A stretch of 64,000 nt of DNA from Oceanivirga miroungae (GTDB lineage: Bacteria > Fusobacteriota > Fusobacteriia > Fusobacteriales > Leptotrichiaceae): positions 186,001 through 250,000 of the forward strand of contig NZ_CABWIB010000001.1 of NCBI RefSeq assembly GCF_902505095.1, given 5' to 3'. Within the stretch, counting starts at the first letter, position 1, and every line of letters begins with the position of its first letter. Made by a program: the position numbers and the translations under genes. The notes under the pieces were generated by a model, which did not search any database, was not told the DNA's origin, and saw nothing but the letters and a program-made list of their open reading frames with translations. Positions 39,320 to 56,543 of this stretch are shown here, piece by piece.

Positions 39320-39366
39320 TGTAACCGTTTTCATTGTTAGTATATCTTGATTTTTTAATTTGTCAA
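39320..39366 (-). promoter_or_regulatory. malQ promoter with cre/LacI-type operator
   Basis: Minus strand: TTGACA (39361-39366), 16-base spacer, TATACT (39339-39344), then TGAAAACGGTTACA (39320-39333), which fits the cre consensus TGNAANCGNWWNCA. Located just after the -10 box, it would block initiation. A CcpA- or MalR-like LacI-family regulator is implied. Confidence 0.7.
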
Positions 39367-39429: not shown

Positions 39430-39459
39430 TTGACAAAATGGTTGGGGGGGGGGTATACT
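39430..39459 (+). promoter_or_regulatory. Phase-variable promoter with a ten-G spacer tract
   Basis: TTGACA (39430-39435) and TATACT (39454-39459) are 18 bases apart, and the spacer ends in ten G (39444-39453). Gain or loss of G during replication would change the spacing around the 17-base optimum and switch or tune the glycosyltransferase/adhesin operon. GGGAGTGG at 39481-39488 is the downstream ribosome binding site. Confidence 0.8.
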
Positions 39460-39491
39460 TATATAGACAGCTTTAAAAAAGGGAGTGGAAT

Positions 39492-41027
39492 ATGGCATAT
39501 AGGAATATATTGTTTTATTATGGTTCAACTTTTACTAAACTAGATGGTGGGATAACACAGTTAATAAATAAAGTTAAGATGTTTGAAAATATGGGTAAAT
39601 ATAACCTAGTGATAATGAATAATAGTTATGACCCAGAGAGTAAGTCAAGATTTATTAACATAACAAAATTTAGAGAAGTAGATATAAAAACTAAATTTTT
39701 TAATGAGATAGATGTTTTACTTGGAAGAGATAATATTACTAAAGATAATGACCAAAGTTTAAATCATTTACCAAATTTAAAATATGTTAAAGATGTTAAT
39801 TCTTTTGATAAAATGGGAGCAATAAATAAAAGGAAAAATGCTATAGATCATATAGTTACCTATGATGAAATAAGTGGAAGAATAAAAGAAATAGCCTATT
39901 ATGAAAAGATAAATGGCAAAATGCTTGAAATAAAAAAAGATGCATATGATTCATATGGGTATATATACTCAAGTACATATATGAATTTAAATACTACTTT
40001 TATTGAAAGAAAAGTTTTCTATAATAAAGATGGAAAAATAAAAGTTGAAATGTTTTATAAAAGAGTAGGTGAAGAAAACAAACAGTATAAAATAATAGTG
40101 TATAACGATAATTTCATGCCTGAAAATATATTTGATGACTTAGAGGATTTCAATATATATTTAAGAAACCTAATTTTTAGCAAATATAATGTAAAAGAAA
40201 CCCTAGTAATAAATGATAATATTAGTCTATATTCGGAGTTAAAAAAAATAAATGGCTTAAGAATAGTAAATCAATTACATAATATACATTTATTATCTGA
40301 TAATATAAATTCAGCTTTCTATGATAATATAGCAGATATTTCAAATGATTTAAGAAATGATAAAAATACTTTTTTAGTAACACTAACAGAAGCTCAAAAA
40401 AAAGATATAGAAAGTAGAATTGGAAAACAAAATAACATAAAAGTTATACCAAATGCTATTAGTATAAATGAAGAAACAAATTACAATAGACCAAATAATA
40501 AATTAGTAGTGATGGCAAGGTTAGATGATATAAAAAGAGTTGATTTAGCAATAAAAGTATTTAAACTTTTACATGAAAAAGATGAAAAATTAGAATTAGA
40601 GATTTATGGTGTTGGAGTTAATAGAAATAAGCTCTTGAATTTAATTTCGGAGTTAAGATTAGAAAAAAGTGTACATATGAAAGGTTTTTGTACTAACCCC
40701 AATGAAGTATTAAGTAATAGTACATTATTGATTAATACAAGTTCGTTTGAAGCATACCCTATGCTTTTAATTGAAAGTATTAACAATGGTTGTCCTGTTG
40801 TAAGTTTTGATATCCATTATGGGATAAGAGAAATTATTTCAGATAAACAAACTGGAATAATTGTAGAGAATAATAATTTAGAAAAAATGGCGGAAGAAAT
40901 TTATTTATTATTGCAAAACAAAAAAAGATACGAAGAAATGATAGATAGCTGTTATACAAAAAGACACGACTTTACATTTGACAAAGTAATTGTTAAATGG
41001 GAAGAGTTATTAAAGAATATGGAGTGA
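39492..41027 (+). CDS. GT4-family glycosyltransferase, TagE/GtfA-like
   Basis: 511 residues. The N-terminal 320 residues resemble the acceptor half of TagE/TarM/GtfA-type enzymes (YYGSTFTKLDGGITQLINKVKMF, and NQLHNIHLL). The C-terminal GT-B lobe has VVMARLDDIKRVDLAIKVF, VHMKGFCTNPNEVLSNSTLLINTSSFEAYPMLLIESINNGCPVV, with the E-x7-E motif that holds the nucleotide sugar. Related enzymes glucosylate teichoic acids or O-glycosylate serine-rich adhesins. It is transcribed from the poly-G promoter and ends 2 bases before the adhesin gene, so protein glycosylation of that adhesin is an attractive inference. Confidence 0.85.
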   Translation: MAYRNILFYYGSTFTKLDGGITQLINKVKMFENMGKYNLVIMNNSYDPESKSRFINITKFREVDIKTKFFNEIDVLLGRDNITKDNDQSLNHLPNLKYVKDVNSFDKMGAINKRKNAIDHIVTYDEISGRIKEIAYYEKINGKMLEIKKDAYDSYGYIYSSTYMNLNTTFIERKVFYNKDGKIKVEMFYKRVGEENKQYKIIVYNDNFMPENIFDDLEDFNIYLRNLIFSKYNVKETLVINDNISLYSELKKINGLRIVNQLHNIHLLSDNINSAFYDNIADISNDLRNDKNTFLVTLTEAQKKDIESRIGKQNNIKVIPNAISINEETNYNRPNNKLVVMARLDDIKRVDLAIKVFKLLHEKDEKLELEIYGVGVNRNKLLNLISELRLEKSVHMKGFCTNPNEVLSNSTLLINTSSFEAYPMLLIESINNGCPVVSFDIHYGIREIISDKQTGIIVENNNLEKMAEEIYLLLQNKKRYEEMIDSCYTKRHDFTFDKVIVKWEELLKNME

Positions 41028-41029
41028 AA

Positions 41030-43276
41030 ATGAGAGAAGAAAATAAAAGATGGTTAAAAAGAAGTTTAAAAAACAAAGTTAGAATAACAGCTGGAGTTAT
41101 TATAGGATTTATGATTACAGGAGGACTTAGTTTTGCAGAAAAAATCACAGTAGAAGAATTAGAACATAAAGAAAATTCAATTGAATTTGCTAAAAGTCCA
41201 TATGATGCTACCGATAAACAAAAATGGAACCACAAATTATTTACAATAACTAATGGGAAACATCCTGGAAAAGTTTACTTAAACTACTCTAAACTTGTAT
41301 GCGACTCTAAAGCTGTATGCGAAAAAAAAGAATTTAAAAAATTTGATAGTTTAGATTTAAGTGAATTAAAAAGAATTGACGAAACAATTTTAGTTCAAGA
41401 AGGCTATTGCTATTCTATACCTATAAAAGATGAGTTAATATTAAAAGATTTAACAATAAATGGTGATTTAAACTTATCTGGTTTAAAAGAAATAAATTCT
41501 GTTGAAGACTTAAAAAAAAAGTATGCTGAATCAGATTATGTTGAAAAAAATACAATGAACTACGAGCAATATAAGAAAGATAAGGCTGAGAATTTTGGTA
41601 AGATAATGCGTTCTGAAAACGATATGAGCATAAATAATAACACTGTAAGTGGAAATATAGTTATAGGAGTAGAAGAATTAGATAGAAGGCTAGATTTATC
41701 AAACAATAAAGTAGGAGGGAAGATAAATTTAGACAAACTAACTAGTGCTGCTTCTATGAATAATAGTTTTGAAAATACTGAAGCAGGGAAGGTTGATTTA
41801 TCTAATTTAAAGACAATAAAGAACGCTAAAAAAACTTTTTTAAATTCAAAAATAAAAGAAATTGATATGTCTAAATTAGATATTTCTTTAGCAGATGGTT
41901 ATGTTGATTTAAGCATGATGTTAGATAATGCGGAATCAGATAAAGTTAGTTTTGGTAAAATAACAAATGAAAATGTTTATAAAGCTGAAGGCGAAGATAA
42001 TAATACGTTAGGAGATATTAGTAAAATCAAAGATTTTAACTTTATTTATAACGACGTAAATGGAGAATCAATATTAGATTTAATAGAATATAAAGAAAAA
42101 AAATATTTTGTTGTACCTTATGATAAATATGTTAATAATAGTTGGAAGAGTGAAAATAATGCTAATTTAAGAGAAAATAATTATGCTAAATTAAATCCAT
42201 ATGCATTTAATAACCGTTTGTATGATAGAATATATTACAAAAATCAATATGAAAGTGGTAAAGAAAAATTAATAGAAGATACTAGATACATAATATTAGA
42301 ATCTCCATTATACGAGGATAAAAGAAAAGTTACAGTTCAAGATTTAATTGATATGGGCAAATTAATAGGCATTAATTTAAATGAAGATCACACTGGACTT
42401 AAGCTAGACCCTAAAGCTGCAGCAGGTAAATTAAGTGAGGGTGCTGATATAAATAATCCTAAGGGTATATTGGTAACAGATACTAAAGTAAAAGAGGCGT
42501 TAGAGAATATAAGTTCTGGTGGCTCAAATTCAAAAAGTATAGAGAATAACAAAGCTGGAATAGCTAATGCAATGGCTGTAGCTAATATTCCACAAGTTTC
42601 AGCAGATAAATTATTAAGTATTGGAGTTGGTGCTGGTTACTATAATAAACAAGGAGCTATAGCGGTTGGTATATCTGGTCAAGATAGAGGGAAAAATGTA
42701 GTTTTCAAAGTTTCAAGTGGAGTTGACTTTAAGGGTAATTTTAGTGTTGGTGCTGGAATAAATTACTCATTTATGGAAAATAAAAAAGAAGTAAATAATA
42801 TTAATCCTGATTTGAGAAAAACTATTGAAAAACAAGATGAAAAAACTAAAAAAGCTATAGAAGAAGCTCTAGCTAAGCAAGAAAAAAGACATAGAAAAGA
42901 AATGCAACAACTAATATATCAGTTTAAAAATGGTGATATTAATAACTATAATCCAGGTTATGAAATATATAGCGTATTAGGATTTAGATTTGATAAATTT
43001 AATTTAACAAATGAATTAGTAATGCAATTAAATTCTATTTTATCTAAAGCAAATATAAGTAGTGATAGTAAAATAGAAGTTATAGGATTTACAGATTTAA
43101 ATGGTTCAGATAAATATAATTTAAAACTTGGTTTAAATAGAGCTATGAGTGTAAAAAAATACTTAATTAGTATGGGTGTACCTAGTGATATAATTGAAAT
43201 TAAATCTCGTGGTATAAATGAAATTAATGGATTAGAATCTGTTAAATTAAGAAGAGTAGATATAATTATAAAATAA
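41030..43276 (+). CDS. Trimeric autotransporter-like adhesin with OmpA domain
   Basis: 748 residues from ATG 41030 (GGAG 5 bases upstream). A long basic signal sequence (RWLKRSLKNKVRITAGVIIGFMITGG) cleaves near AEK. Residues 90-330 hold repeating LDLS-type units (LDLSELKRID, LTINGDLNLSGLKEI, LDLSNNKVGGKINLDKL), a right-handed repeat passenger. At about 510-590 comes a YadA-type anchor (NNKAGIANAMAVANIPQVSADKLLSIGVGAGYY...AVGISGQD...VSSGVDFKGNFSVGAGINYSF), then a coiled coil (590-640) and an OmpA-C domain (VLGFRFDKFNLT, IEVIGFTDLNGSDKYNLKLGLNRA, LRRVDIIIK). The protein would trimerise in the outer membrane and grip peptidoglycan. Confidence 0.85.
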   Translation: MREENKRWLKRSLKNKVRITAGVIIGFMITGGLSFAEKITVEELEHKENSIEFAKSPYDATDKQKWNHKLFTITNGKHPGKVYLNYSKLVCDSKAVCEKKEFKKFDSLDLSELKRIDETILVQEGYCYSIPIKDELILKDLTINGDLNLSGLKEINSVEDLKKKYAESDYVEKNTMNYEQYKKDKAENFGKIMRSENDMSINNNTVSGNIVIGVEELDRRLDLSNNKVGGKINLDKLTSAASMNNSFENTEAGKVDLSNLKTIKNAKKTFLNSKIKEIDMSKLDISLADGYVDLSMMLDNAESDKVSFGKITNENVYKAEGEDNNTLGDISKIKDFNFIYNDVNGESILDLIEYKEKKYFVVPYDKYVNNSWKSENNANLRENNYAKLNPYAFNNRLYDRIYYKNQYESGKEKLIEDTRYIILESPLYEDKRKVTVQDLIDMGKLIGINLNEDHTGLKLDPKAAAGKLSEGADINNPKGILVTDTKVKEALENISSGGSNSKSIENNKAGIANAMAVANIPQVSADKLLSIGVGAGYYNKQGAIAVGISGQDRGKNVVFKVSSGVDFKGNFSVGAGINYSFMENKKEVNNINPDLRKTIEKQDEKTKKAIEEALAKQEKRHRKEMQQLIYQFKNGDINNYNPGYEIYSVLGFRFDKFNLTNELVMQLNSILSKANISSDSKIEVIGFTDLNGSDKYNLKLGLNRAMSVKKYLISMGVPSDIIEIKSRGINEINGLESVKLRRVDIIIK

Positions 43277-43287
43277 AAAAAGATGAG

Positions 43288-43332
43288 AAAGTAAGTATAA
43301 GAAGTTAGTTTAACTTAAAAAACTTACTTTTT
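43288..43332 (+). terminator. Terminator of the glycosyltransferase/adhesin operon
   Basis: AAAGTAAGT (43288-43296) pairs with ACTTACTTT (43322-43330), with an inner AAGTTA/TAACTT pair, followed by T6. Confidence 0.7.
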
Positions 43333-43384
43333 TATTTCTTAAAAAGCATAAAAACTTGCACTTTTTGAGTGTGAAATTTGCAAG

Positions 43385-44917
43385 TTAAAGTTTGATGTGC
43401 AACACATAAAAAACATGACAAACATCAGTAAAATCAATAGGTTTAGAGATTTTGATAAAAAAATTTAAACCTATTTTTTTTTGATAATTCGCTAGAACTT
43501 AATAAATTCAAGTGTTCTAAACAATAAAAATTTGATATTATTAAAGTTGATATGCAACACCCTTTTTTAAAGTTGATATGCAACACTTTGGTATTCAAGA
43601 AAGGGTAAAAATGAAATTAAAAGATAGAATAGAAATAGAAATTAGATTAAGAGAAAATACTGGTATTAGAGAAATAGCAAGATTATTAAATGTTAATCCT
43701 TCAACAGTATCAAGGGAAATTAAAAAGAATAGAATGGTATGTAGAAATAAAAAAGTAATAGAATTAAATTATAGAGATAATGAGGAAATATTAGAAACAC
43801 ATCCATGTGAATTGCTAACTAAAAGCCCAAATGTCTGCAATGGATGTCCTAGATATATAAATAATCATTGCTACTATCACTATGTAATATACAATGCAGA
43901 ACAAGCAGATAATAATTATCTTAAGTTAAAATCAGAAAGTAATTCTAAAATTAAAAATGAAGTAGTACAAATAGAGTTAAAAAAAGATATACAAAAACTG
44001 TTAAATTTAGGACAACCTATCTCACACATACATATATCATTAAAAGAAATATATAAAGACGACATGGTATCTATTCAAACAATATATGACTGGATAAGTA
44101 AAGGTATTGTTAAATATACTAAAAAGAAAATAAAGACTAGAGCAACTAATTTAAGTAAAGATAAAATAGAATATAAGAAAAGATTAGAGTTTTTAAAGAA
44201 TAAGGAATTTCAAGATTTCGTAGAATATACTAAAGGCAAGAACTTAAATATAGTTGAAATGGATTTGGTATGTGGACCTTTAGGGAGTAATGGATACATA
44301 CTAACAATATTTATTCCTAGAATACAGTTTTTAATGGCATATAAATTAAAATATAAAACGCCTTACGAAGTACTAAGAGTACTAGATGATATTGAAAATA
44401 AGATAGGGTATTCTATGTTTAAAAAGCTATTTGGAGTAATATTAACAGATAGGGGATCTGAGTTTTTAAAATTTAATGAAATAGAAATTAGCAAGAAAAC
44501 TCTTAAAAATAGAACGAAAATATTTTACTGCGATGCAGGAACACCAACACAAAAACCATTTATAGAGAATATTCATAGATTATTAAGAAAAGTGTACCCA
44601 AAAGGTGTAAGTTTAGAGAATGTATCACAAGAAGATTTATACGAAGTAGTAAGTAATATAAATAGTTTAAAGAAAAAAGCATACAATAATAAAACCCCTA
44701 ATGATATGTTTATTGAAACTTATAGTAAAACTTTACTATCAAAACTATCATTAAGGGCATATAATTGTGATGAAGTTGTTTTATTACCATTAAATACAAC
44801 CTCTAAATAATTATAAACCAAATAATAAAAAATAACAATTAGAAAATCCCAAAGTGTTGCATATCAAACTTTAAAAGTATATAAAAAAAATACTAGGTGT
44901 TGCATATCAAACTTTAA
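43385..44917 (+). mobile_element. IS30-family insertion sequence
   Basis: The motif AAAGTTTGATRTGCAACAC occurs at the left edge (43387) and twice more in shorter form (43543, 43568); its complement occurs twice on the right (44854 and 44897-44917). The 17-bp GAGTGTGAAATTTGCAA lies just outside the left end (43367) and near the right end (44924). A stem-forming 43430-43490 segment lies inside. Confidence 0.7.
43611..44810 (+). CDS. IS30-family transposase
   Basis: 399 residues from ATG 43611 (GAAAGGG upstream). N-terminal helix-turn-helix: IEIEIRLRENTGIREIARLLNVNPSTVSREIKKN, with a Cys-rich loop CNGCPRYINNHC. The DDE core has LNIVEMDLVCGPLG (D), GVILTDRGSEFL (D) and PTQKPFIENIHRLLRK (E). The end shows KKKAYNNKTPNDMFIE. 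Complete. A decayed relative is at 10324. Confidence 0.92.
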   Translation: MKLKDRIEIEIRLRENTGIREIARLLNVNPSTVSREIKKNRMVCRNKKVIELNYRDNEEILETHPCELLTKSPNVCNGCPRYINNHCYYHYVIYNAEQADNNYLKLKSESNSKIKNEVVQIELKKDIQKLLNLGQPISHIHISLKEIYKDDMVSIQTIYDWISKGIVKYTKKKIKTRATNLSKDKIEYKKRLEFLKNKEFQDFVEYTKGKNLNIVEMDLVCGPLGSNGYILTIFIPRIQFLMAYKLKYKTPYEVLRVLDDIENKIGYSMFKKLFGVILTDRGSEFLKFNEIEISKKTLKNRTKIFYCDAGTPTQKPFIENIHRLLRKVYPKGVSLENVSQEDLYEVVSNINSLKKKAYNNKTPNDMFIETYSKTLLSKLSLRAYNCDEVVLLPLNTTSK

Positions 44918-47564: not shown

Positions 47565-50500
47565 ATGAAAAATTTTAAAGAAATAGAAAGACAACTAAAG
47601 ACGGTTTTAAAACATAGATTTAGTATTAAAAAAAGTACCGTTATACAGTTTTTAATGTTAGGTATGGTATTTGCAACTAGTAGTAGATCATTGGCAATAA
47701 CAGAAGGGACAGCAACAAATAATGCCATTGCAATAGGTAGTGGATCAGTAGCGACATCTGAATCACTAGCTGTGGGAGTTGGTGCAAAAACAGAAAATAC
47801 GCAATCAGTTGCTATAGGAAACTACGCAAAAGCTTCAGGAGATCAATCTGTAGCTATTGGTGGAGTTAGTTATTCTAATGGAAGTAGTTTAAATACGGAA
47901 GCAAGTGGAAATCAATCAATGGCTATTGGTGGGAATGTTAAAGCTTATGGTAATTCTTCTATAGCTATTGGTGGAGATGATACTGATAAGGTTAAAGATC
48001 AGGATATTGTATATAATGGTAAAAATATGACAGTAGATGCAGCATTAATAAAAGCTTCGGGAATAAGTCTAAATGCGCAAGGGCATTGGTACCCTACTAT
48101 AACTGAAGGAGGAGGTTCTATTGCAATTGGTGTAAAAGCAAGAGCACTAAAAGCATTAAGTTTAAGTTTAGGAACAGCTTCAACAGCAGATGGTGTACTT
48201 TCATTAGCATTAGGAGCAGGAGCATATGCATCTAGAGATAACTCTATTGCATTAGGACCAGGATCATCTACAAAAGAAGAGGCTAAATTTGTTGAATTAT
48301 CGGTTATAAAAACATTAACAGAAACAGGAGAAGATACAGGTAAAACTATAACATATAAAAACTTTGCTGGAGGGTCTGAAAATTTATCACCAGGAGATCA
48401 GGTTTCAATTGGGTCAAAAGGATTTGAAAGACAAATAAAGCATTTAGCACCAGGGGAAATATCTAAAACATCTACAGATGCAATTAACGGATCACAATTA
48501 GCTTCAATAGCTGGTAGTTTACAAGGTAGTATTGCTAAAAATGCAAAAGATATTAGTAATATAAAAGCAAAAGGAACACAATTACCAATAGTATACACAG
48601 ATAAAGATGGAAACAAGTTATATAAACAAGAAGATGGAACATTTAAGAAAAATGCAGATGGTAGTGGAGATACAGTAACTGAGGTTATAACTTCATTACA
48701 AGGAGGAGATGAGTCAACAACAAATCCAGTAGAATTAGCAAATGTAAAAAGTGGAATAGATTCTGAAAAGATTGGAAAAGGTAAAATAGAAAAAGATACT
48801 GCAATAGAAGTAGCAAGTAAATTAAATGATTTAGATGACACTAAAGCATTAAATACAGCGGCAACAGTAGGTGACTTACAAGCGTTATCAGTAGCAGGAT
48901 TAACATTTACAGATAATAAAGGGAATAAGATACATAAAAAACTAGGAGAAACACTACAAATTAAAGGTGGAAATGATGGTACATCAGTATCAGATAAAAA
49001 TACATATGTTGAAGCTAGTACAGATGGTAAATTAGTAGTAAAATTTGCAGAAACTCCTTTATTTAAAGAAATTAAATTAGGAGAAGATGGAGCAAAAACT
49101 ACATTAAAAACAGATGTTGATGGAGATTTATCAATAGAAAAACCTGTTGCAAGTGGAACAGCGACACCAGAAAAAGTATTAACAGATAAAAACTATGCAG
49201 AAAAAGTTCTATTATCATATAAAGTAAATGATGAAGCAGATACAGCTGCTAAGAAAGTAACATTACAAAAAGGATTAACATTTAAAGGTGATGCTAATAT
49301 TACAGTAGAATCAGAAGCTAATGGAGTAATAACACATAAATTAAATAAAGACTTAACAGGAATAGACTCAATAGGAAAAACTGATGGAGCAAAAATCGCA
49401 ATAGGAGCAGATACGGTAACATTATCAAAAGGATCTGATCCAGTTAAATTAACAGGAATAAAATCAGGAGAAATTTCTGACACTTCAAAAGATGCAATAA
49501 CAGGAAAACAATTAAAAGGATTAGCAGATAAATTAGGATTAACACCAGATTCTAACGGAGAATTTCCAGATTTAACTGACATGCCACAGTTAAAAGGTGC
49601 AGATGGTCAAGATGCAACAGCAAGTACAAGTATATTAGATGCAATAAAAGCAAATGCAACAGCACTAAATAGAGGATTTAAAATTAGAGCAACTGATAAT
49701 ACAGGAGCAGATGATAAAACACAATATTTAGGAAGTACAACAACATTTGTAGAAGCAGGATCAACAGGAATTACTAAGAATACTGTTAAATACAATGGTT
49801 CAAACCTAACAACTAAATATACATACGATGGTGGAAATGGAAAAGTAGAAATAGGATTTAAAGAAACTCCTTTATTTAAAGGATTAGAATTAGGAGAAGA
49901 TGGAGCAAAAACTACATTAAAAACAGATGTTGATGGAGATTTATCAATAGAAAAACCTGTTGCAAGTGGAACAGCGACACCAGAAAAAGTATTAACAGAT
50001 AAAAACTATGCAGAAAAAGTTCTATTATCATATAAAGTAAATGATGAAGCAGATACAGCTGCTAAGAAAGTAACATTACAAAAAGGATTAACATTTAAAG
50101 GTGATGCTAATATTACAGTAGAATCAGAAGCTAATGGAGTAATAACACATAAATTAAATAAAGACTTAACAGGAATAGACTCAATAGGAAAAACTGATGG
50201 AGCAAAAATCGCAATAGGAGCAGATACGGTAACATTATCAAAAGGATCTGATCCAGTTAAATTAACAGGAATAAAATCAGGAGAAATTTCTGACACTTCA
50301 AAAGATGCAATAACAGGAAAACAATTAAAAGGATTAGCAGATAAATTAGGATTAACACCAGATTCTAACGGAGAATTTCCAGATTTAACTGACATGCCAC
50401 AGTTAAAAGGTGCAGATGGTCAAGATGCAACAGCAAGTACAAGTATATTAGATGCAATAAAAGCAAATGCAACAGCACTAAATAGAGGATTTAAAATTAG

Positions 50501-53500
50501 AGCAACTGATAATACAGGAGCAGATGATAAAACACAATATTTAGGAAGTACAACAATATTTGTAGAAGCAGGATCAACAGGAATTACTAAGAATACTGTT
50601 AAATACAATGGTTCAAACCTAACAACTAAATATACATATGATGGTGGAAATGGAAAAGTAGAAATAGGATTTAAAGAAACTCCTTTATTTAAAGGACTAG
50701 AATTAGGAGAAGAATCTAATAAGATAACACTAACACCAGGAACAGATGGAACATTAATATTGGCTAAAGATCCAGTGGGAACACCAACAGATGATAAAGT
50801 AGTATTAAAAGGTTTAAAAGATGGAATAGATAAAGATTCAGCAGTGACTAAAAAGGCATTAGATGATGCTAAAAGTGAATTAAAAACTGCAGCAGATTCA
50901 TTAGGAAATAAGGCATTAACAATAAGTGATGGTGGAACCGAAGATTCTCATAAGTTTGTAAGAAATAATAATGAAGATAAAACATTAAAAATAATAGCTG
51001 GTAATATTGCTACAGACTATAAAGATACAAATTTAAAGACGGAAATAGTAGATGGAGAAAATGGGAATAAGATATTAAATATAGGATTAAAAGAAAGTCC
51101 AGAATTTAAAGAAATTAAATTAGGAGAAGATGGAGCAAAAACTACATTAAAAACAGATGTTGATGGAGATTTATCAATAGAAAAACCTGTTGCAAGTGGA
51201 ACAGCGACACCAGAAAAAGTATTAACAGATAAAAACTATGCAGAAAAAGTTCTATTATCATATAAAGTAAATGATGAAGCAGATACAGCTGCTAAGAAAG
51301 TAACATTACAAAAAGGATTAACATTTAAAGGTGATGCTAATATTACAGTAGAATCAGAAGCTAATGGAGTAATAACACATAAATTAAATAAAGACTTAAC
51401 AGGAATAGACTCAATAGGAAAAACTGATGGAGCAAAAATCGCAATAGGAGCAGATACGGTAACATTATCAAAAGGATCTGATCCAGTTAAATTAACAGGA
51501 ATAAAATCAGGAGAAATTTCTGACACTTCAAAAGATGCAATAACAGGAAAACAATTAAAAGGATTAGCAGATAAATTAGGATTAACACCAGATTCTAACG
51601 GAGAATTTCCAGATTTAACTGACATGCCACAGTTAAAAGGTGCAGATGGTCAAGATGCAACAGCAAGTACAAGTATATTAGATGCAATAAAAGCAAATGC
51701 AACAGCACTAAATAGAGGATTTAAAATTAGAGCAACTGATAATACAGGAGCAGATGATAAAACACAATATTTAGGAAGTACAACAACATTTGTAGAAGCA
51801 GGATCAACAGGAATTACTAAGAATACTGTTAAATACAATGGTTCAAACCTAACAACTAAATATACATACGATGGTGGAAATGGAAAAGTAGAAATAGGAT
51901 TTAAAGAAACTCCTTTATTTAAAGGATTAGAATTAGGAGAAGAATCTAATAAGATAACACTAACACCAGGAACAGATGGAACATTAACATTAGCTAATAA
52001 TCCAGCAGGACAAGGCAATGATGGTGGAAAAGTAGAATTAAAAGGCTTAAAAGCAGGAACAGATGATGATTCAGCAGTAACTAAGGGACAATTAGATGAC
52101 CTAACTTCAAAAACAGGAGATTCAACAAAAGATGACCAAGATGCTAGAAATACAGCGGGAACTGCAGGAAATGATGGATTAAATGGTAAATCATTAAATG
52201 ACAAAATAAATGCAGTAAGAAGAGGAGAAGCTGGAACTGTTGTATATACTAATGCTGCTGGAGAAAGATTAGTAAAAGCTAAAAACGGTAAATTCTATAA
52301 ACTAGGTGAAGTAGATAAAGATGGAGAACCGGTTCAAGGAGCAAAACCAGTAGAAACTTCAGATGTAATAGCATCATTAGTAAATCCAGATGGAGAAACA
52401 ACAGAACCTACAAGATTAGCAAATATATCAAGTGGATTAGATAATACTAAGATAGGAAAAGGTTTAATAGCTGATGCTGATGCCAAAACAGCAGTAGATA
52501 AATTAAATAAGTTAGTTGACACTAATATATTAAATTCAGCAGCAACATTAGGAGATTTACAAGCAATATCAGTAGCAGGACTTAATTTTGCAGGTAATAA
52601 TAGTGTAGCAGATATACATAAAAAACTAGGAGAAACACTAGAAATACAAGGTGGATACACAGGAAATGAAAAATCATCTAAAAATACATATGTTGAAAAC
52701 GATGGTAGTAAATTAGTAGTTAAAATTGCAGAAACTCCAGAGTTTAAAGGATTAGAATTAAAAGCAAGTGAAACAGCAAAAAAAGTTAAATTTACACCAG
52801 ATGAAGCTGGAAACTTGACATTAAGTAAAGATGTAGCAGCAGGAGAAGATAATAAGGTAGTATTAAATGGACTTAAAGAAGGAACAACAGCTGATTCAGC
52901 AGTAACTAAGGGTCAATTAGATAAACTAGCAGAAAAATCAGGAGATTCAACAAAAGATGACCAAGATACTAGAAATACAGGTACTGGAGCAGCAGCAAAA
53001 GATGGATTAAATGGAAAATCATTAAATGATAAAATAAATGCAGTAAGAAGAGGAGAAGCAGGACCAGTTGTATATACTAATAAACAAGGTGATAGATTAG
53101 TAAAAGCAAAAGATGGTAAGTTCTATAAAGCAGAAGATGTAAATCCAGATGGAACAGCTATAACTGGAAAACAATCAGTAGATAATGTAGTAACATCACT
53201 AGTTAATCCAGATGGAACAACAACGGCTCCTACATCATTAGCAAATATATCAAGTGGAATAGATTCTGAAAAGATTGGAAAAGGTAAAATAGAAAAAGAT
53301 ACTGCAATAGAAGTAGCAAGTAAATTAAATGATTTAGATGACACTAAAGCATTAAATACAGCGGCAACAGTAGGTGACTTACAAGCGTTATCAGTAGCAG
53401 GATTAACATTTACAGATAATAAAGGGAATAAGATACATAAAAAACTAGGAGAAACACTACAAATTAAAGGTGGAAATGATGGTACATCAGTATCAGATAA

Positions 53501-56500
53501 AAATACATATGTTGAAGCTAGTACAGATGGTAAATTAGTAGTAAAATTTGCAGAAACTCCAGAATTTAAAGGATTAGAATTAAAAGCAAGCGATGGTGCT
53601 AAAAAAGTTAAATTTACACCAGATGCAGATGGAAACTTAACATTAAGTAATGATTCTACAGGAGAAGAAGCAGGAAAAGTAGAGCTTAAAGGATTAAAAG
53701 AAGGTACAACAGCTGATTCAGCAGTAACTAAGGGACAATTAGATAAACTAGCAGAAAAATCAGGAGATTCATCAAAAGACGCTGAGGACGCTAGAAATAC
53801 AGGTACTGGAGCAGCAGCAAAAGATGGTTTAAATGGAAAATCTCTAAATGACAAAATAAATGCAGTAAGAAGAGGGGAAGCAGGACCAGTTGTATATACT
53901 AATAAACAAGGTGATAGATTAGTAAAAGCAAAAGATGGTAAGTTCTATAAAGCAGAAGATGTAAATCCAGATGGAACAGCTATAACTGGAAAACAATCAG
54001 TAGATAATGTAGTAACATCACTAGTTAATCCAGATGGAACAACAACAAACCCAACAACATTAGGAAATATTGCAAGTGGAATAGATCCAACTAAGGTAGG
54101 AGTAGATCCAGCATCAGGAGAAGAAGCAGCACCAATAAAAGATGATGTAGCAAAAGCAGTTACAGAAACATTAAATGGAATAAAAGATAAAAACAAATTA
54201 AATACAGCAGCAACAGTAGGAGACTTACAAGCAATATCAGTAGCAGGATTAACATTTGGTGGAAATTCTGGAACAGATATACATAAAAAACTAGGAGAAA
54301 AACTAGAAATAATAGGTGCACATTCTAAAGAAAACACATCAGATAAAAATACATATGTTGAAGCTAGTACAGATGGTAAATTAGTAGTTAAATTTGCTGA
54401 TAGACCTGAATTTGATGAAATTAAGATAAAAGGAACAGATGCTAATAATCCAATAGTTATTAACTCAGACGGTATTGATTTATCAGGTAAGGCTATTACA
54501 AATGTTAAATCTAATTTAGATGATATAGCTAGTGATACAGCAGTAAAAGCAGCACCAACAGATGAAACTATTAAATCTATTAAATCTAACGCTGCAACAG
54601 TAAATGATGTATTAAACGCTGGATTTAATATACAAGGAAATGGTAATGCAGTAGACTTTGTAAAAGCTTATGATACTGTAAACTTTGTAGATGGATTAAA
54701 TACAGTTGCAAAAGTTGAAAAGGATAATAATGGAGTTGTATCAGTTAAATATGATGTTGACTTAACAGAACTAAAAGATAATAACCCATTTGAATATGTA
54801 GATGCTAACGATAAAAAAGTTGTTAAATTAGGTGATAATTATTATCCAGAAGGAACAAAATTAAAAGAAGGTAGACCAGTTGATGCTAGTGGGAATGCTA
54901 CAGAAGCATTAAATACTAAAGTTGTTAAATTAGGTGATAATTATTATCCAGCAGGAACAGTATTAAAAGAAGATAAGCCAGTTGATGCTAGTGGACAAGC
55001 TGTAGAAGCATTAAATCCTGATAAAGTAGCGTATAATATTTCTATAAAATCAAAAGGAGAAGCTAAACCACTTAAAAATATTGCAGATGGTAAAGTAGAA
55101 AAAGGATCAAAAGAAGCAGTAAATGGAGGTCAATTATTTGCAATAACGGGTGGTGTAGTATCTAACGGTGTTCCTGTAGATGAGAGTGGTAAACCAATGT
55201 TAAAAACATACAATGTTGATGGTCAAGGAGAATATGTACAAAATTCTGTTTATACAGCTATTCAACGTATGAATGAAGAAGGAATTAAATTCTTCCACGT
55301 TAATGATGGTACTAAAGAAGGAGAAACAAAAGATCAAACAAGTAACACAGAAGATGCTAGTGCTGGTGGACTATATTCAGCAGCTATTGGATATAAAGCA
55401 GATGCTAGTGGAAATGAATCGGTAGCATTAGGACATGGAGCTAAAGCCTCTGGAGAACAATCAATAGCAATAGGTACAGGAAATATAGTTACTGGAGCTC
55501 ATTCAGGAGCAATAGGGGATCCTAATACTATTAAGGCAGATAGTTCTTATGCTGTAGGTAATGATAACACTATTAATACAGAAAATACATTTGTATTAGG
55601 TAATAATGTAACAGAAACACATGAAAACTCTATATTCTTAGGTGATAGTTCAGCTTATGTAGAAGCAGATTCAACAACAGCAGGGGCTGGTAAATTAACA
55701 CAACAAACTCTTGGAGGTGGAGTAGTTAATGAATATGCAGGTGGAGATAATGTAGTTGGTGTACTAAGTGTTGGTAATAAAGGACAAACACGTCGTATTC
55801 AAAATGTAGCTCCAGGATTAATATCTAAAGACAGTAGAGATGCAATTAATGGTTCTCAACTATATTCAGTAAATGACAAAGTTAATAATGCATTAAGTGG
55901 TGTTGCAAATGCTATAGCAACTGCTAATTTAACTCAAGTAAGTTATAGAGGAGATTACAGTAAACAAATAAGTGCAGGGTATGGATATTATGGTAATGAA
56001 CATGCATTAGGACTTGGATTTAGTGGTATAACTGAAGGTGGTAAAGTAATTTACAAACTAAGCGGAAGTATTAACACAAGAGGAAAAATTGGAGTTGGAG
56101 TTGGTTTAGGTTATCAATTTGATAAGAAAAATAGAGGCTCTGATGAATATGCAGAAAAAATATCTAAATTAGAAAATCAAGTAAGAGAATTAACTGAAAA
56201 AGTTAAGGAAAACAGAGAAAGACTATATGTTATAGATAATTATGTAAATGATAAATTCAGTTTAACTAAAACTCAAATAATTAAGTTAAAAGCTATAGTT
56301 AAAGAAATAAATGAAAAATATTCAGACAGAATTATAGATATAACAGGGTATACAGATACAAATGCATCTGATAGATATAATTTAGATTTAGGATTAAAAA
56401 GAGCTAATAAGATACAAGATGTAATGATAGAATTAGGACTAAAAAATCCTCAAAATATAAGAAAAGTGTCAAGTTTTGGATTTAATAATAAAGTAAATTC

Positions 56501-56543
56501 AAGCTTTGGAGAAAATAGAAGAGTAGAAATTATAGTTAAATAA
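47565..56543 (+). CDS. Giant trimeric autotransporter adhesin with OmpA domain
   Basis: 2,992 residues, AAGGAG 7 bases before the ATG. Extended signal sequence (residues 1-46, ending SRSLA). YadA-type head repeats SVAIGxxAxASGxxS fill about 50-230, and a first neck DAINGSQLASIAGSL lies near 305. The stalk has repeated blocks: a 271-residue unit at about 505-775, 776-1046 and 1186-1456 that is nearly identical in DNA, then about 100-residue DGLNGKSLNDKINAVRRGEAG units from 1530 to 2160, and two 36-residue VVKLGDNYYPxGT units near 2425. A second head (GGLYSAAIGYKADASGNESVALG) leads to the neck DAINGSQLYSVNDKV (about 2760), the YadA anchor (to about 2855), a coiled coil and an OmpA-C domain (IIDITGYTDTNASDRYNLDLGLKRA, ENRRVEIIVK). 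It is a surface adhesin. Confidence 0.95.
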   Translation: MKNFKEIERQLKTVLKHRFSIKKSTVIQFLMLGMVFATSSRSLAITEGTATNNAIAIGSGSVATSESLAVGVGAKTENTQSVAIGNYAKASGDQSVAIGGVSYSNGSSLNTEASGNQSMAIGGNVKAYGNSSIAIGGDDTDKVKDQDIVYNGKNMTVDAALIKASGISLNAQGHWYPTITEGGGSIAIGVKARALKALSLSLGTASTADGVLSLALGAGAYASRDNSIALGPGSSTKEEAKFVELSVIKTLTETGEDTGKTITYKNFAGGSENLSPGDQVSIGSKGFERQIKHLAPGEISKTSTDAINGSQLASIAGSLQGSIAKNAKDISNIKAKGTQLPIVYTDKDGNKLYKQEDGTFKKNADGSGDTVTEVITSLQGGDESTTNPVELANVKSGIDSEKIGKGKIEKDTAIEVASKLNDLDDTKALNTAATVGDLQALSVAGLTFTDNKGNKIHKKLGETLQIKGGNDGTSVSDKNTYVEASTDGKLVVKFAETPLFKEIKLGEDGAKTTLKTDVDGDLSIEKPVASGTATPEKVLTDKNYAEKVLLSYKVNDEADTAAKKVTLQKGLTFKGDANITVESEANGVITHKLNKDLTGIDSIGKTDGAKIAIGADTVTLSKGSDPVKLTGIKSGEISDTSKDAITGKQLKGLADKLGLTPDSNGEFPDLTDMPQLKGADGQDATASTSILDAIKANATALNRGFKIRATDNTGADDKTQYLGSTTTFVEAGSTGITKNTVKYNGSNLTTKYTYDGGNGKVEIGFKETPLFKGLELGEDGAKTTLKTDVDGDLSIEKPVASGTATPEKVLTDKNYAEKVLLSYKVNDEADTAAKKVTLQKGLTFKGDANITVESEANGVITHKLNKDLTGIDSIGKTDGAKIAIGADTVTLSKGSDPVKLTGIKSGEISDTSKDAITGKQLKGLADKLGLTPDSNGEFPDLTDMPQLKGADGQDATASTSILDAIKANATALNRGFKIRATDNTGADDKTQYLGSTTIFVEAGSTGITKNTVKYNGSNLTTKYTYDGGNGKVEIGFKETPLFKGLELGEESNKITLTPGTDGTLILAKDPVGTPTDDKVVLKGLKDGIDKDSAVTKKALDDAKSELKTAADSLGNKALTISDGGTEDSHKFVRNNNEDKTLKIIAGNIATDYKDTNLKTEIVDGENGNKILNIGLKESPEFKEIKLGEDGAKTTLKTDVDGDLSIEKPVASGTATPEKVLTDKNYAEKVLLSYKVNDEADTAAKKVTLQKGLTFKGDANITVESEANGVITHKLNKDLTGIDSIGKTDGAKIAIGADTVTLSKGSDPVKLTGIKSGEISDTSKDAITGKQLKGLADKLGLTPDSNGEFPDLTDMPQLKGADGQDATASTSILDAIKANATALNRGFKIRATDNTGADDKTQYLGSTTTFVEAGSTGITKNTVKYNGSNLTTKYTYDGGNGKVEIGFKETPLFKGLELGEESNKITLTPGTDGTLTLANNPAGQGNDGGKVELKGLKAGTDDDSAVTKGQLDDLTSKTGDSTKDDQDARNTAGTAGNDGLNGKSLNDKINAVRRGEAGTVVYTNAAGERLVKAKNGKFYKLGEVDKDGEPVQGAKPVETSDVIASLVNPDGETTEPTRLANISSGLDNTKIGKGLIADADAKTAVDKLNKLVDTNILNSAATLGDLQAISVAGLNFAGNNSVADIHKKLGETLEIQGGYTGNEKSSKNTYVENDGSKLVVKIAETPEFKGLELKASETAKKVKFTPDEAGNLTLSKDVAAGEDNKVVLNGLKEGTTADSAVTKGQLDKLAEKSGDSTKDDQDTRNTGTGAAAKDGLNGKSLNDKINAVRRGEAGPVVYTNKQGDRLVKAKDGKFYKAEDVNPDGTAITGKQSVDNVVTSLVNPDGTTTAPTSLANISSGIDSEKIGKGKIEKDTAIEVASKLNDLDDTKALNTAATVGDLQALSVAGLTFTDNKGNKIHKKLGETLQIKGGNDGTSVSDKNTYVEASTDGKLVVKFAETPEFKGLELKASDGAKKVKFTPDADGNLTLSNDSTGEEAGKVELKGLKEGTTADSAVTKGQLDKLAEKSGDSSKDAEDARNTGTGAAAKDGLNGKSLNDKINAVRRGEAGPVVYTNKQGDRLVKAKDGKFYKAEDVNPDGTAITGKQSVDNVVTSLVNPDGTTTNPTTLGNIASGIDPTKVGVDPASGEEAAPIKDDVAKAVTETLNGIKDKNKLNTAATVGDLQAISVAGLTFGGNSGTDIHKKLGEKLEIIGAHSKENTSDKNTYVEASTDGKLVVKFADRPEFDEIKIKGTDANNPIVINSDGIDLSGKAITNVKSNLDDIASDTAVKAAPTDETIKSIKSNAATVNDVLNAGFNIQGNGNAVDFVKAYDTVNFVDGLNTVAKVEKDNNGVVSVKYDVDLTELKDNNPFEYVDANDKKVVKLGDNYYPEGTKLKEGRPVDASGNATEALNTKVVKLGDNYYPAGTVLKEDKPVDASGQAVEALNPDKVAYNISIKSKGEAKPLKNIADGKVEKGSKEAVNGGQLFAITGGVVSNGVPVDESGKPMLKTYNVDGQGEYVQNSVYTAIQRMNEEGIKFFHVNDGTKEGETKDQTSNTEDASAGGLYSAAIGYKADASGNESVALGHGAKASGEQSIAIGTGNIVTGAHSGAIGDPNTIKADSSYAVGNDNTINTENTFVLGNNVTETHENSIFLGDSSAYVEADSTTAGAGKLTQQTLGGGVVNEYAGGDNVVGVLSVGNKGQTRRIQNVAPGLISKDSRDAINGSQLYSVNDKVNNALSGVANAIATANLTQVSYRGDYSKQISAGYGYYGNEHALGLGFSGITEGGKVIYKLSGSINTRGKIGVGVGLGYQFDKKNRGSDEYAEKISKLENQVRELTEKVKENRERLYVIDNYVNDKFSLTKTQIIKLKAIVKEINEKYSDRIIDITGYTDTNASDRYNLDLGLKRANKIQDVMIELGLKNPQNIRKVSSFGFNNKVNSSFGENRRVEIIVK
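48750..49056. repeat. About 307-bp stalk block, copy 1 (copy 2 at 53255-53561)
   Basis: Encodes GIDSEKIGKGKIEKDTAIEV through VEASTDGKLVVKFAETP. The copy at 53255-53561 appears base-identical although 4.5 kb away, which implies recent duplication or gene conversion. Confidence 0.8.
49078..50703. repeat. Two tandem 813-bp units in the adhesin stalk
   Basis: Units 49078-49890 and 49891-50703 differ at only a few bases that I can see (for example ACAACAACA to ACAACAATA near 50554). A third copy lies at 51121-51933 after a 417-bp interval. Each unit encodes 271 residues, so recombination keeps the frame. Confidence 0.9.
51121..51933. repeat. Third copy of the 813-bp adhesin unit
   Basis: Matches 49078-49890 almost perfectly, beginning TAGGAGAAGATGGAGC and ending before TTAGGAGAAGAATC. 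Confidence 0.9.

Follow-up and report, generated by a model that had tools for sequence, protein, structure and literature searches.

A putative poly-G slippage switch in the promoter of a glycosyltransferase-adhesin operon, one of a promoter family in Leptotrichiaceae

INTRODUCTION

The closest described system is the porA promoter of Neisseria meningitidis, in which a poly-G tract lies between the -35 and -10 hexamers and its length shifts their spacing around 17 bp (as summarized in PMC7864442, citing van der Ende 1995). The locus analyzed here shares with porA a homopolymeric G tract between the hexamers and the control of an outer-membrane or surface protein. Unlike porA, it belongs to Fusobacteriota, its tract is flush with the -10 hexamer and lies 8 to 9 nt from the -35, up to 32 such loci occur in one genome, and a putative glycosyltransferase-adhesin operon is driven. 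The family also resembles Treponema pallidum tprE/G/J/L and tp0126, where several outer-membrane protein genes are under the control of poly-G length, but the tprL tract overlaps the -10 region and leaves the -35/-10 spacing unchanged in the account given by PMC7864442.

The enzyme of the present locus differs from staphylococcal SdgA/SdgB and TarM and from streptococcal GtfA in having a diderm host and a YadA-anchored partner. SdgA/SdgB and GtfA glycosylate surface adhesins. In the Aah/AIDA-I and TibC/TibA operons, the glycosyltransferase gene lies directly 5' of the autotransporter adhesin gene, as it does here; Aah and TibC are heptosyltransferases of another family, and poly-G switching is not known for their promoters. 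The mechanism has a precedent in porA; novelty lies in the host group, in how many loci there are, and in the pairing of a glycosyltransferase with an adhesin. Across the open-access full text that was searched, no report described phase variation for Streptobacillus, Sneathia or Fusobacteria, nor did any describe a family-wide poly-G promoter set. A general homopolymer survey makes no mention of these three groups.

RESULTS

The window, the whole 64-kb stretch of DNA that was analyzed, contains a single run of at least 8 G (3 overlapping 8-mers, compared with 0.04 in shuffles). This G10 tract lies wholly between recognizable -35 and -10 hexamers, as in porA, in a promoter reading TTGACA-AAATGGTT-GGGGGGGGGG-TATACT (39430-39459). 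The features around it are as follows.

39430-39435, plus strand: -35 hexamer TTGACA, 6/6 consensus (sequence, promoter scan)
39436-39453, plus strand: spacer, AAATGGTT (8 nt) followed by G10, 18 bp in total
39444-39453, plus strand: G10 homopolymer flush with the -10 hexamer, the proposed slippage switch (sequence)
39454-39459, plus strand: -10 hexamer TATACT, 5/6 consensus, 18 bp from the -35
39480-39489, plus strand: Shine-Dalgarno-like AGGGAGTGGA, its GGGAG core 6 nt from the ATG at 39492
39339-39366, minus strand: divergent promoter TTGACA-16-TATACT without a G tract (promoter scan, ORF list)

With a sigma-70-like score of 11/12, the promoter tied for the best in a scan of the 37- to 46-kb region. 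The sequence-only reading had described a TTGACA/TATACT spacer of 18 bases with ten G, and both the sequence and the promoter scan bear this out. It had further placed the spacing around a 17-base optimum; the 18 bp stand, within 1 to 2 bp of 17 as in porA-type promoters, with the correction that 18 is already one above 17. A short leader is expected upstream of the ATG at 39492. The divergent promoter serves a minus-strand 508-aa gene resembling 4-alpha-glucanotransferase and, judged by its sequence, is a non-switching neighbor.

Two closely spaced genes and a hairpin follow the G-tract promoter.

39492-41027, plus strand: GT4/GT-B glycosyltransferase, 511 aa (Pfam PF00534, E = 8.7e-32)
41030-43276, plus strand: surface protein, 748 aa, its ATG 2 nt past the glycosyltransferase stop (ORF list, domain searches)
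43281-43337, plus strand: terminator-like hairpin with a 16-bp outer stem and a U-rich 3' arm (RNA fold)

The Pfam match confirms the GT4 enzyme that had been proposed downstream of the promoter, and the protein carries an E-x7-E motif (EAYPMLLIE). Its closest curated families are the SdgA and SdgB adhesin O-glycosyltransferases (NCBIfam E-values of 4.7e-45 and 4.9e-40), with GtfA more weakly matched (6e-21). All of these matches fall far under the curated cut-offs; since the SdgA and SdgB bit scores are 154 and 137.6 against cut-offs of 800, the enzyme is best classed as a distant relative of SdgA/SdgB, not a member. The homology spans residues 125 to 507 (SdgA), 20 to 508 (SdgB) and 134 to 507 (PDB 7ec3), and related solved structures are 7ec3 itself (1.8e-28), TarM 4x6l (4.8e-25) and Gtf1 5e9t (6.4e-20). 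The glycosyltransferase itself is cytoplasmic. No relatives of it were returned by a protein search of a genome contig collection, 98 Fusobacteriota genomes contained no full-length relative (C-terminal GT4 similarity only), and a search of IMG/VR found no second copy of the locus. AlphaFold models made from single sequences reached pLDDT values of 37 for the glycosyltransferase and 35 for the adhesin passenger, too low for a fold search.

The 748-aa protein consists of a signal-like N-terminus, a passenger, a YadA-like anchor (residues 521-581; PF03895, 36.3 bits against a cut-off of 22.7) and an OmpA peptidoglycan-binding domain (652-728). The downstream adhesin of the sequence-only reading thus holds with respect to its YadA anchor and OmpA domain, but the start at 40997, inside the glycosyltransferase gene, gives way to a likely start at 41030. 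With this anchor and OmpA domain, the second gene supplies a surface-exposed product of the kind controlled by porA-type switches. YadA head or stalk repeats were absent from the protein (PF05658 and PF05662 gave no match up to E = 10), and relatives matched only its N-terminal signal region and anchor-proximal part. The order in which the OmpA domain lies C-terminal to the YadA anchor is the same in its 2992-aa neighbor.

The hairpin 3' of the adhesin gene has a folding energy of -18.4 kcal/mol (z = -4.5 relative to shuffles). Because of the 2-nt gap, this terminator after the second gene, and a chance-level promoter count (60 sigma-70-like matches in the scanned region versus 61 in shuffles), a two-gene operon is the simplest reading of the sequence. 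It is unlikely that the promoter switches while the adhesin is made mainly from a promoter of its own inside or after the glycosyltransferase gene, which would leave only the glycosyltransferase phase-variable. Several weak sigma-70-like matches do occur within that gene, but their number is that expected from shuffles, the gene spacing and the hairpin position fit joint transcription, and in the family the first gene behind most other poly-G promoters encodes an exported protein. In the preferred two-gene operon, the glycosyltransferase and the surface protein are plausibly switched together, and from their adjacency and the distant homology to adhesin glycosyltransferases we infer that the enzyme modifies the neighboring adhesin.

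Beyond the operon, the window contains a transposase-like 410-aa ORF with an HTH_38 domain (43578-44810; IS30-like), near-identical copies of which surround a duplicated 461-aa YadA-anchor ORF elsewhere in the genome (G000:C1, near 302000-310500). The neighboring 2992-aa trimeric autotransporter (47565-56543) lacks a poly-G promoter; its internal repeats are long, and its YadA anchor is followed by an OmpA domain at the C-terminus.

The window's own genome (G000, 1.36 Mb) has more long G runs than chance would give. Four runs of at least 10 G are present, against 0.003 expected by independent-base arithmetic at the window's GC content of 25.6%. Five runs reach at least 8 G, of which four have 10 to 11 G and three sit in a promoter spacer; 8 of the 10 G9 words of the genome lie inside poly-G promoter spacers. 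In addition to the window promoter, TTGACA-8nt-G11-TATAAT is found at C1:254393, upstream of a small exported-like ORF followed by a trimeric autotransporter (open frame of 5142 aa), and at C1:677053, directly upstream of a 4700-aa trimeric autotransporter. The G8 run at C1:1205336-1205343 (L018) occupies a Shine-Dalgarno position, 5 nt ahead of the start codon (ATG) for a 5737-aa trimeric autotransporter, and may be a form of the same switch that acts on translation. The G10 run at C1:1251061-1251070 (L019, L224), with no clear -35/-10 pair around it, precedes by 116 nt a four-gene cluster encoding an HTH protein, a methyltransferase, a 180-aa protein and a 5330-aa trimeric autotransporter. 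All five long runs therefore occupy the 5' regions of trimeric-autotransporter operons. Such a run is absent from the other, mostly smaller YadA-anchor genes of the genome and from the 2992-aa gene at 47565.

Among 33 genomes of the family, taken as Leptotrichiaceae because one of them (G022) is Streptobacillus, 93 poly-G-spacer promoters were found in 10: 3 in the window's genome and 90 in relatives. Reading the sequences backward as a control gave 0 matches in all genomes except one, which had a single match. Most sites belong to Streptobacillus, namely 32 in G014, which we take to be S. moniliformis DSM 12112, 23 in G022 (S. notomytis AHL 370-1, the sites on contig 165 being identical to those of record LJRV01000165) and 20 in G005 of the same genus. 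In these three genomes, 69 of 80, 43 of 48 and 34 of 35 G9 words, respectively, fall inside poly-G spacers. The G tract is flush with the -10 hexamer in 79/93 sites and is mostly 6 to 9 nt from a near-perfect -35. A stricter pattern applied to 98 Fusobacteriota genomes gave almost no matches beyond this family, with backward controls of 0. By this sequence comparison, the locus appears to be one of a promoter family that extends through Streptobacillus, Sneathia-like genomes and the window's own genus.

Related arrangements were also seen. Four G014 promoters (C1:323675, 1072954, 1633413 and 611499) have interrupted G tracts, such as GGGGGAGGA, and resemble switches that have decayed or become locked. 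Scanning the contig collection (L081-L160) recovered poly-G-spacer promoters in Clostridia, Saccharibacteria and "Ca. Ancillula" as well as in other MAGs. Most of these promoters precede genes whose products begin with a signal or lipoprotein sequence, and fewer of them have a 17-bp spacer (6) than a spacer of 16 bp (15) or of 18 bp (18), with an uncorrected p of ~0.02. In Fusobacteriaceae, G10 to G11 runs occur just inside ORF starts (L025, L027, L028), some with an autotransporter-like signal region, and their position suggests translational rather than promoter phase variation.

The sequence-only reading had taken the downstream genes for typical phase-variable surface functions, and across the family the downstream proteins are indeed mostly exported. 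First genes encode YadA-type trimeric autotransporters (34), small outer-membrane-like proteins mostly of 165 to 230 aa (20), classical autotransporters (10; the single one scanned matched PF03797) and a small number of others. A signal-like N-terminus is present in 77/89 first genes versus 18/50 window ORFs, as called by a simple and approximate hydropathy rule.

Tract length differs in 13 of 18 pairs of similar promoters (orthologs or paralogs, mostly cross-species orthologs). The clearest pair has G10 in one species and G6 in another, with flanks identical at 160/160 positions. Further pairs, whose flanks nearly match on one or both sides, have 11/10, 9/11 and 10/9 G, a difference of one G between draft assemblies being a possible sequencing error. 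The claim of spacer-slippage phase variation is thus supported by the family comparison, with 93 sites, a control near zero and tracts that differ between orthologs.

Poly-G spacers of the family are mainly 15 to 21 bp long and cluster at 18 to 19 bp (mode, 19). In G014, 14 of 22 poly-G promoters have a 19-bp spacer, compared with 0/43 TTGACA/TATAAT promoters without a G tract (Fisher p = 5e-9), whose mode is 17 bp (21/43). The preference for 18 to 19 bp could reflect a weak or OFF state of most copies in the cells that were sequenced, or else a spacing optimum that poly-G DNA displaces. We discarded loss of mismatch repair as an overall explanation, since 33/33 genomes of the family have mutS; slippage therefore need not be very frequent. 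Action through a G-quadruplex was set aside, since a lone G10 run is unable to fold into one by itself.

DISCUSSION

We propose, with a probability of roughly 85%, that slippage of its G10 tract makes this sigma-70-type promoter a phase-variation switch and that the promoter is one of a Leptotrichiaceae family. Within populations, replication slippage would add or remove G residues in the tract, and since the -35 and -10 hexamers flank it, each G gained or lost would change the distance between them by 1 bp. The glycosyltransferase-adhesin operon would then be transcribed more or less strongly, as with the porA promoter, some exact tract length being the presumed ON length. The adhesin-type O-glycosyltransferase would probably be co-switched with its surface target. 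Across the genomes, the promoter family would randomize which exported proteins are expressed, trimeric autotransporters and autotransporters among them.

The poly-G tract might instead work through DNA shape or regulator binding, as proposed for opc and tprL, and not through simple spacing. According to PMC7864442, the poly-G/C tracts of tprL and opc act with the 17-bp spacer unchanged; most G-tract spacers of the present family, at 18 to 19 bp, lie off the same-genome optimum, and poly-G duplexes may be twisted differently from other DNA. Against this stands the geometry of spacing control, with 79/93 tracts flush with the -10 hexamer and mostly 6 to 9 nt from a near-perfect -35, and no shared regulator site is seen in the aligned promoters. 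We consider such a mechanism improbable. It is more improbable still that the tract is a fixed, ordinary spacer with length differences due to assembly error or slow divergence: some differences do amount to one base only and some related sites have decayed tracts, but chance would very rarely produce such long G runs at 25.6% GC, yet they are concentrated in promoter spacers, differences reach 4 bases between identical 160-nt flanks, and spacers of 15 to 21 bp center on 19 versus 17 in the same genome's other promoters.

It is likely that Streptobacillus and its relatives display their surface proteins at random on a genome-wide scale. Dozens of exported proteins, comprising trimeric autotransporters, autotransporters and small outer-membrane-like families, would each stand behind their own poly-G-spacer promoter, and about one-third of the perfect-consensus promoters of one genome would be switches. 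The set in the window's genome would include an adhesin co-switched with the enzyme that glycosylates it.

The roughly 90 natural promoters, with common hexamers and differing numbers of G, constitute a data set on spacing versus transcription, and could show whether poly-G shifts the spacing optimum. Surface variation is poorly described in Streptobacillus, the agent of rat-bite fever, and in its Sneathia relatives. If the promoters switch, each cell would carry a random subset of adhesins, which would have consequences for serology, for vaccine thinking and for the interpretation of any single reference genome.
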